This document shows positions 18,235-22,704 of a stretch of DNA of 64,000 nucleotides, one piece after another. Origin of the DNA: Fusibacillus kribbianus (lineage in GTDB: Bacteria; Bacillota; Clostridia; Lachnospirales; Lachnospiraceae). Every line of letters starts with the position of its first letter. The stretch's first letter is position 1. The notes beneath the pieces were generated by a model, which made no database searches, was not told where the DNA came from, and was given only the letters and a program-made list of their open reading frames with translations. The position numbers and the translations under genes are program-made. The stretch is taken from assembly GCF_030053595.1 (NCBI RefSeq), contig NZ_JASGBQ010000006.1, positions 1 through 64,000 on the forward strand, read 5' to 3'.

Positions 18235-18240
18235 AATACC

Positions 18241-18284
18241 TCGGTGAGTTCGAGACCTTCCTCACCTAAAACAAAACTAAAGGA
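18241..18284 (+). ncRNA. PreQ1-I riboswitch
   Basis: GGTGAG (18243-18248) pairs with CTCACC (18261-18266), the loop begins TTCGAG, and an A-rich tail AAAACAAAACTAAAGGAG follows in which CTAA precedes the ribosome binding site. This small H-type pseudoknot layout is typical of preQ1-I. The tail holds the Shine-Dalgarno sequence of queT, so control is probably at translation. Confidence 0.85.
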
Positions 18285-18294
18285 GAACTGAATT

Positions 18295-18894: not shown

Positions 18895-20277
18895 ATGTAT
18901 CAGATAGATTTTCAGAAACCCATAGCAGTGCATTTTATCGGAATCGGCGGCATCAGTATGAGCGGCCTGGCGGAGGTACTGCTTTCCAGAGGCTTTCGGG
19001 TAAGCGGCTCCGATTCGGTTGTATCGCCGCTCACCGAACACCTCCAGCAGGATGGAGCGGTAGTCTATGAGGGGCAGAGAGCGTCCAATATCACCGATGA
19101 CATTGACGTGGTGGTTTACACGGCGGCAGTCCATGAGGACAATCCTGAGTTCGCGGAGGCGGTCCGCCGGGGAATTCCCATGATGACCAGGGCAGAGCTT
19201 CTGGGACAGATGATGAAAAATTATCAGGATGCGGTGGCGATTTCCGGAACCCACGGTAAGACCACGACCACCTCCATGGTGGCGGAGATCCTGCTGGCGG
19301 CTGAAGCAGATCCGACCATATCCGTGGGCGGCATCCTTCACAGTATCGGCGGAAATATCCGCATCGGTCATTCGGGCTGCTTTGTGACGGAGGCCTGTGA
19401 ATATACCAACAGCTTCCATTCCTTTTTCCCGACCATTGCTGTGATCCTGAATATCCGGGAGGATCATCTGGATTTCTTTAAGGATATTGATGATATCCGG
19501 GATTCCTTCCACACCTTTGCGAAGCTTTTGCCGGAGAATGGCCTTCTGATCATCAATGCCGATATTCCTGACTACAGGAAGCTGATGGGAGATATTGCCT
19601 GCCGGATGGTGACCTTTGCCCTGGAAAATGAGGAGGCTGATTACCGGGCGGCAGACATTGTGTATAATGAAGCGGGCCATGCCTCCTTTGACGTGATGAA
19701 GCGGGGAGAAAAGCTGGTTCATCTGGAGCTTGAGGTGCCCGGCGAGCACAATGTGGACAACGCGCTGGCGGCGGTGGCTGTGGCAGAGGCCCTTGGAGTG
19801 ACCGGGGAGGCCATTGAAAAGGGACTGGACGGCTATACGGGGACGGAGCGCAGGTTCGAACTGAAGGGAGAGCTGGGCGGCGTGACCGTGGTGGATGATT
19901 ATGCCCATCATCCCGATGAGATCCGGGCGACTCTTCTGGCGGCGAAAAAGCTTCATAAGAAAAAGATCTGGTGTGTATTCCAGCCCCACACTTATACCAG
20001 AACGAAGGCTCTCATGAAGGAGTTTGCGGAGGCTCTTGCTCTGGCAGACGAGGTGGTACTGGCAAAGATCTATCCGGCCAGAGAGACCGATACCCTTGGT
20101 ATCAGTTCGGCGAATCTTGCTGTCGAATTGGAGAAACTGGGAAAAAAGGTTCATTATTTTGAATCCTTTGATGAAATAGAAAATTTTCTGCTGGAAAATT
20201 GTGTCCCCAATGAATTGTTGATAACTATGGGGGCGGGAGACGTTGTAAAGATTGGAGAAAGCCTGTTAGGCCTGTAG
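18895..20277 (+). CDS. murC: UDP-N-acetylmuramate-L-alanine ligase
   Basis: The 460-residue Mur ligase adds L-alanine to UDP-MurNAc in the cytoplasm using ATP. It shows the Rossmann-like IGIGGISMSGLAE start, the P-loop SGTHGKTTTTSM near 115-126, the EACEYTNSFHSF block and DDYAHHPDEI near 337-346 typical of MurC. Length is normal. It has its own promoter and is followed by a strong terminator that overlaps DnaA-box-like sequences. Confidence 0.97.
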   Translation: MYQIDFQKPIAVHFIGIGGISMSGLAEVLLSRGFRVSGSDSVVSPLTEHLQQDGAVVYEGQRASNITDDIDVVVYTAAVHEDNPEFAEAVRRGIPMMTRAELLGQMMKNYQDAVAISGTHGKTTTTSMVAEILLAAEADPTISVGGILHSIGGNIRIGHSGCFVTEACEYTNSFHSFFPTIAVILNIREDHLDFFKDIDDIRDSFHTFAKLLPENGLLIINADIPDYRKLMGDIACRMVTFALENEEADYRAADIVYNEAGHASFDVMKRGEKLVHLELEVPGEHNVDNALAAVAVAEALGVTGEAIEKGLDGYTGTERRFELKGELGGVTVVDDYAHHPDEIRATLLAAKKLHKKKIWCVFQPHTYTRTKALMKEFAEALALADEVVLAKIYPARETDTLGISSANLAVELEKLGKKVHYFESFDEIENFLLENCVPNELLITMGAGDVVKIGESLLGL

Positions 20278-20286
20278 TTATCCACA

Positions 20287-20337
20287 AAATCCACATGCTT
20301 ATCAACAATTAGTGGAAAAAAGCATGTGGATTTTTTT
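20287..20337 (+). terminator. Terminator of murC
   Basis: AAATCCACATGC pairs with GCATGTGGATTT around a 26-base loop, followed by a run of Ts. Both arms contain DnaA-box-like sequences. Confidence 0.85.
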
Positions 20338-20352
20338 GTGGAAAAACTGAAA

Positions 20353-20381
20353 TTGACAATTCTGTAACTATCCCGTAAAAT
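20353..20381 (+). promoter_or_regulatory. Promoter P1 of the DnaD/DnaC-type operon
   Basis: TTGACA and TAAAAT are separated by 17 bases, in the middle of the DnaA-box cluster. Confidence 0.75.
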
Positions 20382-20483
20382 CGACATTTTTAGGGATTTT
20401 TGGAGGGGAATGTCGAACCTTGTCCACAATATCCACATTTTCCACAAGGAGGTCACTGAGGAGGGGGCTCACGGAAAAACAGG

Positions 20484-20512
20484 TTCTCTTTTCATTTTTC
20501 CTATGTTATAAT
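20484..20512 (+). promoter_or_regulatory. Promoter P2 of the DnaD/DnaC-type operon
   Basis: TTCTCT and TATAAT are separated by 17 bases, with TGT before the -10 (extended -10). Transcription would begin near 20519, only about 20 bases before the chosen start codon. Confidence 0.6.
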
Positions 20513-20538: not shown

Positions 20539-21681
20539 ATGGCGGGACTTGTTGTGACGGACCGGCGGGATTGTGGGGTAACTATGGTGTCCAATCGGTT
20601 TATTGACCGGTTCCTTCCGGAGGCCAACGGGGAATTTGTGAAGGTGTATCTGCTGCTCCTGCGGCAGATCTCCGAGGGAAAAGAGGTATCGGTTTCCCAC
20701 ATGGCCGATGGGCTGAACAATACGGAAAAGGATGTGCTTCGGGCACTGAAATACTGGGAAAAGATGAAGCTCCTGAAGTTGGAGTACGGAACAGATAAAC
20801 GGCTTTCGGGCATTGTCCTTCTGGAGGAGGAGCCTGACAGCAGGATGGAGCTGCCTGTAAATGGAATGGCTGCCGCAAAGACAGCTGCGGTTTCGGAGAC
20901 AGCTGCGGCGCCTGAGAGGGCTGCCGTTTCGGAGGCGGCTGTGACTACGGAGGCGGCAGTCGCTTCGGAACGGAATTTTGTTCCTGCATCGGCAGGAAAG
21001 ACAAGAGACCTTCAGGTGCTGGAAAAGGATGAGGATTTCTGCCAGCTTCTGTACCTGGCGGGGCGCTATACGGGCAAAAATCTGACGCCCAGGGACTGTG
21101 ATGTGCTGGCAAACCTTTACGGAAAGCTGGGCATGTCGGCAGAGCTTCTGGAATACCTGGTGGAATACTGTGTTTCCAACGGGCATAAGAGTATGCGTTA
21201 CATTGAAACAGTGGCCCTCAACTGGAATGAGAGAGGGATAAAGACGGTGGAACAGGCCAGGGCAGAGACGGTGAGCGGAGGAAAAAATACCTATGCGGTA
21301 TTGAAGGCCTTTGGTCTCGGCGGCCGGAATCCGGCGGCGGGAGAGCGGGTCATGATTGACCAGTGGTTCCGGGATTACGGTTTTCCGGTGGATGTGGTGC
21401 TGGAGGCCTGCGACAGGACCATGAGGGCAATCCATCAGCCCAGCTTTGAATATGCGGACAAGATCCTTCGGGACTGGAAGGAAAAGGGAGTCCTCAAAAA
21501 GGCGGATATTGCCAGGCTGGACGGAAAGGGCCCGGGAAGAGAGGGCCGGGAACCGCGAAAAGAGCGCGGGGAACAGACTTCGGAGCGAAAGCCCGAGGCA
21601 AAGCGTTCCAATAAATTTCATAATTTCCCGCAGCGGGATTATGACTGTGACGAGCTTGTCAAGGAACTCAACGGATTTTAA
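20539..21681 (+). CDS. DnaD domain protein (primosomal helicase loading)
   Basis: The 380-residue protein has a DnaD-type N-terminal winged-helix part (about 15-95), an Ala/Glu/Thr-rich linker (about 105-150) and two DnaB_2/DnaD C-terminal domains (about 160-235 and 255-325). Each domain ends with the Y-x3-I/V-x3-W signature: YIETVALNW in the first, YADKILRDW in the second. A charged tail follows (EGREPRKERGEQ). DnaD proteins remodel DNA and help load the replicative helicase. The ATG at 20539 is chosen because AGAGAGG lies 8 bases before it; the earlier ATG at 20521 would fall at the start point of P2. A DnaC/DnaI-like ATPase gene follows after 24 bases. Confidence 0.88.
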   Translation: MAGLVVTDRRDCGVTMVSNRFIDRFLPEANGEFVKVYLLLLRQISEGKEVSVSHMADGLNNTEKDVLRALKYWEKMKLLKLEYGTDKRLSGIVLLEEEPDSRMELPVNGMAAAKTAAVSETAAAPERAAVSEAAVTTEAAVASERNFVPASAGKTRDLQVLEKDEDFCQLLYLAGRYTGKNLTPRDCDVLANLYGKLGMSAELLEYLVEYCVSNGHKSMRYIETVALNWNERGIKTVEQARAETVSGGKNTYAVLKAFGLGGRNPAAGERVMIDQWFRDYGFPVDVVLEACDRTMRAIHQPSFEYADKILRDWKEKGVLKKADIARLDGKGPGREGREPRKERGEQTSERKPEAKRSNKFHNFPQRDYDCDELVKELNGF

Positions 21682-21705: not shown

Positions 21706-22704
21706 GTGGGACTGAACAATTCTCAGTATGACGCGCTGATGCGCGTTTATCAGAAGCGCCAGATGGAGAACCGGCACAGGCAGGAGGAAAGGATCCGGGA
21801 GGTTTACCGGGCGCTGCCCCAGCTTGAGCAGTTCGACCGGGAGATGGGAGCGGTCTCGCTGGAGCAGGCGAAAAAGCTTCTGGCCGGGGATACCGGGGCC
21901 ATGGAGCAGCTCAAATTCAAGCTGAAGGAGCTTCGGGAGAGCCGGGAGGCCCTTCTTGCTGTGGGAGGCTTTTCACCGGATTATATGGAACCGACCTATA
22001 CCTGTGCGGCCTGTCGGGATACCGGTTATGTGGACGGAAAAAAATGCAGATGTCTGCGGCAGGCGGAGATCCGGATCCTTTATGGACAGTCCAATCTGGA
22101 ACAGGTCCTGGAACGGGAAAATTTCGACCGGGTCCGGTATGATTTTTATGACCGGGACCTGATCGTAAATCAGAAAAAGGGCATCAGTCAGTATGAATAT
22201 ATGAAGGCGGTCATTGAAGAGTGCAGATCCTATGCGGAGCATTTCCGGGAAAAGGGAGGCAACATTCTTTTCACAGGCCCTGCCGGTACGGGCAAAACCT
22301 TCCTGACCAACTGCATTGCCAAGGAGCTTCTGGATCAGGCGGAGGCAGTGCTTTACCTGACTGCGGCAGACCTGTTTCAGATCCTGACGGACAAGCGGTT
22401 TGACCGGGGAGATGAGGCTCGGGAAGAACGGTACCGGGGCATTCTGGAATGTGACCTTCTGATCATTGACGATCTGGGAACGGAGCTCAACAACAGCCTG
22501 GGAAATTCAGAGCTTTTCTACTGCATCAATGACCGGGGATTAAAGGGACGGGCTACGATGATCTCCACAAACCTGCCGATGAATGAACTGAGAGACAATT
22601 ATTCTGAGCGGATCTTTTCCAGGATATTCAGCAGCTACCGCATTATTCCTCTGTTTGGAGAGGATATCCGCATAAAAAAGAAAATGGGGGAAAGAAGGGC
22701 TTGA
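21706..22704 (+). CDS. DnaC/DnaI-like helicase loader ATPase
   Basis: The 332-residue AAA+ protein resembles DnaI/DnaC loaders that place the replicative helicase on DNA. A helical N-terminal region (1-90) is followed by a zinc-type cysteine cluster (CAACRDTGYVDGKKCRC, about 99-115), Walker A GPAGTGKTFL (about 190-199), Walker B LLIIDDLG (about 250-257) and an arginine-rich SERIFSRIFSSYR box. The start is GTG with a GGGAGG site. It is coupled to the DnaD gene, and both are under a DnaA-box-rich promoter. Its stop overlaps TTGACT, a possible -35 for the next gene. Confidence 0.9.
   Translation: MGLNNSQYDALMRVYQKRQMENRHRQEERIREVYRALPQLEQFDREMGAVSLEQAKKLLAGDTGAMEQLKFKLKELRESREALLAVGGFSPDYMEPTYTCAACRDTGYVDGKKCRCLRQAEIRILYGQSNLEQVLERENFDRVRYDFYDRDLIVNQKKGISQYEYMKAVIEECRSYAEHFREKGGNILFTGPAGTGKTFLTNCIAKELLDQAEAVLYLTAADLFQILTDKRFDRGDEAREERYRGILECDLLIIDDLGTELNNSLGNSELFYCINDRGLKGRATMISTNLPMNELRDNYSERIFSRIFSSYRIIPLFGEDIRIKKKMGERRA

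Follow-up and report, generated by a model that had tools for sequence, protein, structure and literature searches.

What a dense run of DnaA boxes is doing directly in front of genes for helicase loading is the question raised by the interval between murC and dnaD in Fusibacillus kribbianus. DnaA is both the replication initiator and a transcription factor, and a sequence-only reading of this DNA had proposed that it directly controls helicase-loader expression here. Family matches in the window, meaning the whole stretch of 64,000 nucleotides that was analysed, upheld the gene identities given in that reading: an open reading frame for murC, encoding UDP-N-acetylmuramate--L-alanine ligase (18895..20277, + strand; TIGR01082, 481.5 bits against a cut-off of 335.1), a dnaD-like gene with its DnaD domain in two stretches (20539..21681, +; PF07261, E 4.2e-38; TIGR01446, E 1.1e-22) and a gene for a DnaC/DnaI-like helicase-loader ATPase (21706..22704, +; NF005304 (PRK06835), 368.6 bits against a cut-off of 215). 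The assembly encodes one protein above the DnaA family cut-off; it retains GGKDHSTV, which we take to be the signature of DnaA domain IV, and DnaA boxes flank its gene on both sides. Upstream of murC, a PreQ1 riboswitch-like match at 18239-18286 (24.3 bits, E 0.12, under the Rfam gathering score) lies directly 5' of a queT transporter gene (18295), a fitting position, and the murC-dnaD gap itself gave no match to Rfam up to E 1. Overall, the comparisons described here favour DnaA as an upstream regulator of dnaD-dnaC, probably an activator, that would act through phased arrays of boxes in the murC-dnaD gap, and we regard this reading as likely. The sites, their conservation, orientation and phasing, the terminator and the taxonomic limit within our sample are established; DnaA binding, regulation and its positive sign are what we infer.

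Within 20278-20446 there are nine sites that agree with TTATCCACA at 7-9 of its 9 positions: one is exact, five have one mismatch and three have two. The six with at most one mismatch fall within 169 bp in which about 0.03 would be expected, given that 11.25 such sites are expected per 64 kb. The cluster reported by the sequence-only reading therefore stands, being above chance and, as described below, strongly conserved, with the count corrected from eight sites to nine. Array I (20278..20307, +) begins immediately 3' of the murC stop codon and comprises boxes at 20278-20286 (exact), 20287-20295 (two mismatches) and 20299-20307 (one mismatch). Array II (20420..20446, +), located upstream of dnaD, consists of three head-to-tail boxes starting at 20420, 20429 and 20438, each with one mismatch, at a 9-bp period with a gap of 0. 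Reverse-strand boxes sit between the two arrays, at 20311 and 20325-20333 (two mismatches each) and, as TTTTCCACA, at 20337..20345 (one mismatch). The strict pair TCCACAnnnTCCACA occurs 10 times in the 2.9-Mb assembly, three times in the murC-dnaD gap and twice upstream of hpf on contig C6. Also between the arrays, in 20378-20413, are ATCGACAT and AATGTCGAA in opposite orientation, which we take to resemble Spo0A boxes.

Conservation of the boxes in other Lachnospiraceae, a check suggested by the sequence-only reading, was followed through 150 genomes of the family, of which 148 matched and 143, nearly all from different genera, were read (matching genomes G061, G068, G073, G089 and G091 were left unread). 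Of the 143, 132 had murC and a murC-dnaD gap of 80 bp or more, seven (L118 included) had a shorter gap, and in four loci (L019, L114, L116 and L147) the fetched stretch did not contain murC. Between murC and dnaD, 128 of the 140 genomes having murC in the stretch retained two or more boxes, each with one mismatch at most. Across the 132 gaps, TTATCCACA is the most widespread 9-mer (116 of 132 genomes; dinucleotide shuffles, mean 0.7 and maximum 4), and boxes with at most one mismatch number 620 versus 17.3 in shuffles, 542 of them co-oriented with dnaD. Successive boxes on the same strand are spaced 9 bp apart in 199 pairs and 12 bp apart in 35, and the first + box starts 0 or 1 base past the murC stop codon in 83 of 132 gaps. 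The 620 gap boxes, 297 of them exact, occupy 37.7 kb; the last 600 bp of murC hold 193 (18 exact) in 79 kb, which we attribute to coding, and the first 600 bp of dnaD hold 33 (2 exact). No box was found in the 400 bp upstream of murC in any of 17 regions from the same family.

The limits of the association were drawn by a second search, in which 194 of 196 genomes matched and 69 loci, picked to cover families rather than at random and excluding the window's genome, were read. Seven of these belong to the family (one, G022, is a repeat), and all carry at least four boxes; three or more were likewise present in 13 of the 14 named loci taken from another search, in which L341 of Lachnotalea glycerini had six. 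The remaining 62 loci, from 51 other families of the same class, include none with at least three boxes upstream of dnaD and one with two boxes within 350 bp of it, and in all 62 murC was absent from the fetched dnaD stretch. The boxes are also not a property of murC alone, as none of 28 murC 3' ends from other families had two boxes in 350 bp; three carry one box, and two of the 28 stretches ended at a contig end (after 132 and 23 bp).

Within the family, the cluster is missing from 12 of 140 genomes, scattered such that about 10 changes are required on a midpoint-rooted MurC tree that includes 11 of the 12. From this tree we infer that the boxes are ancestral, and the circuit would be dispensable in some genomes since these 12 lack the cluster. 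In six genomes dnaD lies at most 70 bp from murC with a gap free of boxes, and in none of the six do boxes appear in front of murC instead, which tells against the model. L118 (G077) is not one of the six and carries an array directly 3' of murC; L147, whose stretch contains no murC, has three one-mismatch boxes in front of dnaD, a point in favour; and G075 has no boxes at the 3' end of its murC hit, a weak one (35% identity) that may not be its murC. In G030 (L252) an inserted gene parts murC from dnaD; the five boxes there lie with murC and none with dnaD, which again tells against the model and offers a natural test case of box function.

Array I has a second role at the end of murC. Folding of 20289..20337 (+) with RNAfold gave -17.9 kcal/mol and an outer stem of 12 bp (20289-20300/20320-20331) running into a T run (20331-20337), so that a stable hairpin followed by a T run, as in an intrinsic terminator, marks the murC 3' end; a simple terminator scan reported none there, and the hairpin was shown by folding. 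Box 2 of array I supplies the 5' arm, and the 3' arm overlaps the reverse box at 20325-20333, in agreement with the earlier statement that the arms (left 20289-20300, right 20320-20331) are built from boxes. Scored as TGTGGA plus a T-rich tail after the second box of array I, this design recurs in 60 of the 63 genomes that combine array I with a gap of 190 bp or more (shuffled expectation 0.12); the 38 that were folded gave a mean of -19.5 kcal/mol. Such regularity would suit a reading in which the boxes serve purely as an AT-rich terminator or repeat that DnaA does not bind. However, array I stands without a terminator in 16 of 17 short gaps that contain it (one of the 17 has one), just 2 of 76 genomes pass the terminator test 3' of array II, the box consensus is retained though any stem would terminate, and an identical tandem occurs upstream of hpf; we therefore hold the terminator-only reading to be very improbable. 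Because array I doubles as the terminator stem, DnaA bound there could act as a roadblock, insulating dnaD-dnaC from murC read-through.

A further conserved element, GTTTACATAA, directly follows the murC terminator in 43 of 132 gaps when one mismatch is allowed (L026, L039, L122, L131 and others), usually at 63-67 bases from the stop codon of murC; the window lacks it. We take it to resemble the Xer arm of dif. TTATGT occurs shortly before array II in 12 of 29 cases, and a role for GTTTACATAA as a promoter -35 was discarded when an anchored consensus showed no consistent -10 downstream.

The promoter on which the arrays could act lies 3' of all boxes. An extended -10, TGTTATAAT, at 20504..20512 (+) is invariant in 9 of 9 columns in close relatives, and its pattern TGnTATRMT is found in 118 of 132 murC-dnaD gaps (shuffled gaps, mean 5.2 and maximum 9). 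A weak -35-like TTCTCT (20484..20489, +) lies 17 bp before TATAAT; GTTCTC is invariant in all five aligned sequences, from the window and four close relatives, and -35 regions agree with TTGACA at 2-4 of 6 positions in 113 of 118 genomes. The sequence-only reading had instead placed the promoter amid the boxes, at a TTGACA-17-TAAAAT (20353..20381, +). These promoter-like letters are present, but 12 of 132 gaps, counting the window, contain a pair of TTGACA/TATAAT type, and the window's copy has 33% invariant columns in the alignment with the four close relatives, where the extended -10 reaches 100%, the boxes 69% and the rest of the gap 21%; we therefore reject it as the conserved dnaD promoter. 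The extended -10 also appears in 37 of 62 outgroup dnaD regions and so is not tied to the boxes; on this distribution it is probably older than they are. Loss of the boxes under a conserved promoter had been named beforehand as telling against DnaA control; this check did not refute it, with boxes in 128 of 140 genomes and the promoter motif in 118 of 132. The boxes are thus above chance, kept with the promoter across relatives and missing from outgroups, as would be looked for at a DnaA-regulated promoter.

The relation between boxes and promoter was quantified in 98 genomes where an extended -10 follows a strict tandem pair; in 86 of them the pair starts less than 130 bp before the TG, and the other 12 distances (134-240 bp) were left out of the main sample. 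Pair-to-TG distances among the 86 fall at 64 (10 genomes), 73-75 (9), 81-87 (43) and 93-94 (9), with 15 strays at 61, 63, 70, 71, 78, 96, 103, 106, 109, 114 and 116. In a scan of periods from 7 to 15, the best was 10.5 with R = 0.65 (n = 86), versus a maximum of 0.27 under a jitter null. Collapsing by clusters of the MurC tree, which holds 83 of the 86 genomes, gave R of 0.51-0.69 (p <= 0.0006), and R was 0.54 with all 98 distances. Control distances carry no 10.5-bp phase (murC stop to -10, R 0.07, n = 101; -10 to dnaD, R 0.06, n = 118), and from array I to the -10 in long gaps the signal at 10.5 was not significant (R 0.23; best period 11.2, R 0.52). Gain or loss of a 9-bp box also shifts the distances, though R for period 9 is lower, at 0.36, and several differences between sister pairs (such as 6, 14, 24, 25 and 50) do not lie close to multiples of 10.5. 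In the window, the last pair of array II starts 75 bp before the extended -10.

If transcription starts, as predicted, about 7 nt downstream of the -10 (20519 in the window), the main pairs are centred at about -70, -81, -91 and -101, a geometry of class I type (one helical face, about 60-100 bp upstream of the predicted start) from which 12 of 98 distances depart at 130 bp or more. Class I activators occupy similar upstream positions, CRP sites being an example, and activator-dependent promoters often pair a good extended -10 with a poor -35. We propose that the murC-dnaD gap is a DnaA-binding regulatory region retained through most of the family, on which DnaA would assemble cooperatively over head-to-tail arrays of 9-bp boxes. 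Array II, or the lone array in short gaps, would act on the extended -10 from a fixed face of the helix, with DnaA touching RNA polymerase as an upstream activator of class I type for dnaD-dnaC. If DnaA acts on this promoter, helicase-loader supply should follow the level of active DnaA, a prediction of the model. The phasing of boxes and -10 at 10.5 bp thus lends circumstantial support to the earlier claim of DnaA control over loader expression, but the promoter which that reading named was the wrong one.

The opposite sign was also considered. DnaA could repress dnaD-dnaC, giving negative feedback at high free DnaA, for example by forming a filament or by looping array I to array II. Looping is possible in the 52 of 132 gaps with two strict arrays 88-189 bp apart (most commonly 155 or 165 bp), and among the B. 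subtilis targets named in the available text of PMC4447404, sda is activated and five others are apparently repressed. However, the phased box pairs start 61-116 bp upstream of the TG, off the -35/-10 core, and 16 of the 27 genomes with one strict array keep to a similar range (61-83 bp). Given a poor -35 and boxes placed upstream of the core promoter rather than across it, activation appears likelier than repression, which we rate as unlikely.

A further possibility is that the locus titrates or inactivates DnaA, like DnaA-box clusters of B. subtilis or datA of E. coli, with dnaD a bystander. Ten genomes were searched for the distance to dnaA, and in three of them the locus and dnaA were on different contigs. 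Separation of the locus from dnaA is about 240, 290 and 520 kb in the three single-contig genomes. In G102 it is 256 kb, provided that the main contig is circular, and in three multi-contig genomes with both on one contig it is about 100-280 kb, these last three values being biased towards nearness. Boxes near oriC have been linked to titration in E. coli, according to the part of PMC12371093 available. Yet a titration site needs neither a set orientation nor linkage to a gene, nor any helical phase relative to a promoter, and a few boxes would presumably add little beside oriC. Titration may occur as a side effect; as the main function it seems rather improbable.

Tandem boxes and an A+T-rich spacer adjoining loader genes could also suggest a secondary replication origin or helicase-loading site, and a secondary assembly site had been raised by the sequence-only reading. 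This part of the reading was not sustained: GC skew is positive in all 16 blocks of 4 kb in the window, with no change of sign, and the elements of a basal unwinding system (a box, a short G+C stretch and DnaA-trios) were found in 0 of 132 gaps by a scan that is insensitive, being positive at 2 of 11 dnaA loci. The run of box and trios is present beside the dnaA of the window's own genome. We regard an origin here as extremely improbable.

Tandem boxes of the same kind occur elsewhere in these genomes. An 18-mer tandem with at most one mismatch was found in 45 of 60 genomes at 1-6 copies each, versus 4 hits over 60 genomes for a reversed control. Twenty second tandem sites, mostly exact matches, were fetched, and 13 of them lie upstream of hpf, which encodes an S30AE ribosome hibernation factor, all 13 co-oriented with it. 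In the window's genome the corresponding boxes are at 22305-22397 of contig C6 (G000; L048, 1500-1592). The boxes go with hpf, because secA is upstream in some of these loci and downstream in others. Of the best 30 loci among 58 genomes matching hpf, 20 carry three or more boxes within 450 bp upstream of the gene and eight carry none; TTATrCACCrAG directly precedes the tandem in seven hpf loci, and no phasing was detected for the hpf-upstream boxes (R 0.22, n = 13). In other Lachnospiraceae, tandem boxes at about position 1500 of L290, L296, L297 and L301 lie beside mecA and/or NlpC/P60-SH3 genes, the gene names in L290 having been assigned by eye.

More tentatively, and with somewhat less than even confidence, these loci might together form a small, ancient DnaA regulon of the Lachnospiraceae, characterized by gapless 9-bp tandems, class I activation of the loader operon, hpf as a target in many members and re-use of an array as a DnaA-sensitive murC terminator stem. 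If this is true, initiator activity would set loader supply, and replication initiation would be linked to translation shutdown via hpf. How DnaA activates transcription is described as poorly understood in the available portion of PMC11317965, and the 86 genomes with 24 different spacings, mostly in helical phase, would provide a direct handle on the mechanism. For comparison with what is known, DnaA boxes in Lachnospiraceae returned no publication in the open-licence literature, and murC, dnaD and DnaA box searched together there returned B. subtilis work only, as far as the retrieved text goes.

In B. subtilis, dnaB-dnaI expression is said to respond to replication status through DnaA, a finding credited to Goranov in 2005. 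DnaA-controlled promoters and DnaA-box clusters are known in that organism from the sections of PMC4447404 and PMC5295017 available: sda is activated, and ywlC, vpr, yyzF-yydD, trmE-noc and ywcI-sacT are apparently repressed by DnaA (PMC4447404). The Lachnospiraceae locus resembles these in having intergenic arrays of DnaA boxes near promoters. However, the ten strongest DnaA-binding regions shown in the accessible text of PMC4447404 include no promoter of dnaD, dnaB or dnaI, and gapless arrays phased to one promoter over many genera are unlike B. subtilis as described there. The DnaA regulon of Caulobacter, in excerpts of PMC8203912, includes the replicative helicase gene dnaB with predicted boxes upstream, and the two cases are alike in placing predicted DnaA boxes before a helicase-stage gene; the Caulobacter target, in another phylum, is the helicase itself, whereas in Lachnospiraceae it would be a loader operon of DnaD-DnaC type. 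E. coli DnaA binds paired boxes as a unit, at 2-3 bp apart in the portion of PMC11317965 seen, whereas the main gap in Lachnospiraceae is 0 bp (199 pairs), with a second mode at 3 bp (35). DnaA bound within the transcribed region of E. coli asnC promotes termination, as cited in the same part of PMC11317965; in Lachnospiraceae, unlike asnC, the box is itself part of an intrinsic terminator stem, and any effect of DnaA on that terminator is putative. As judged from these comparisons, what appears to be new is the linkage of gapless, phased arrays to the loader operon through most of the Lachnospiraceae.
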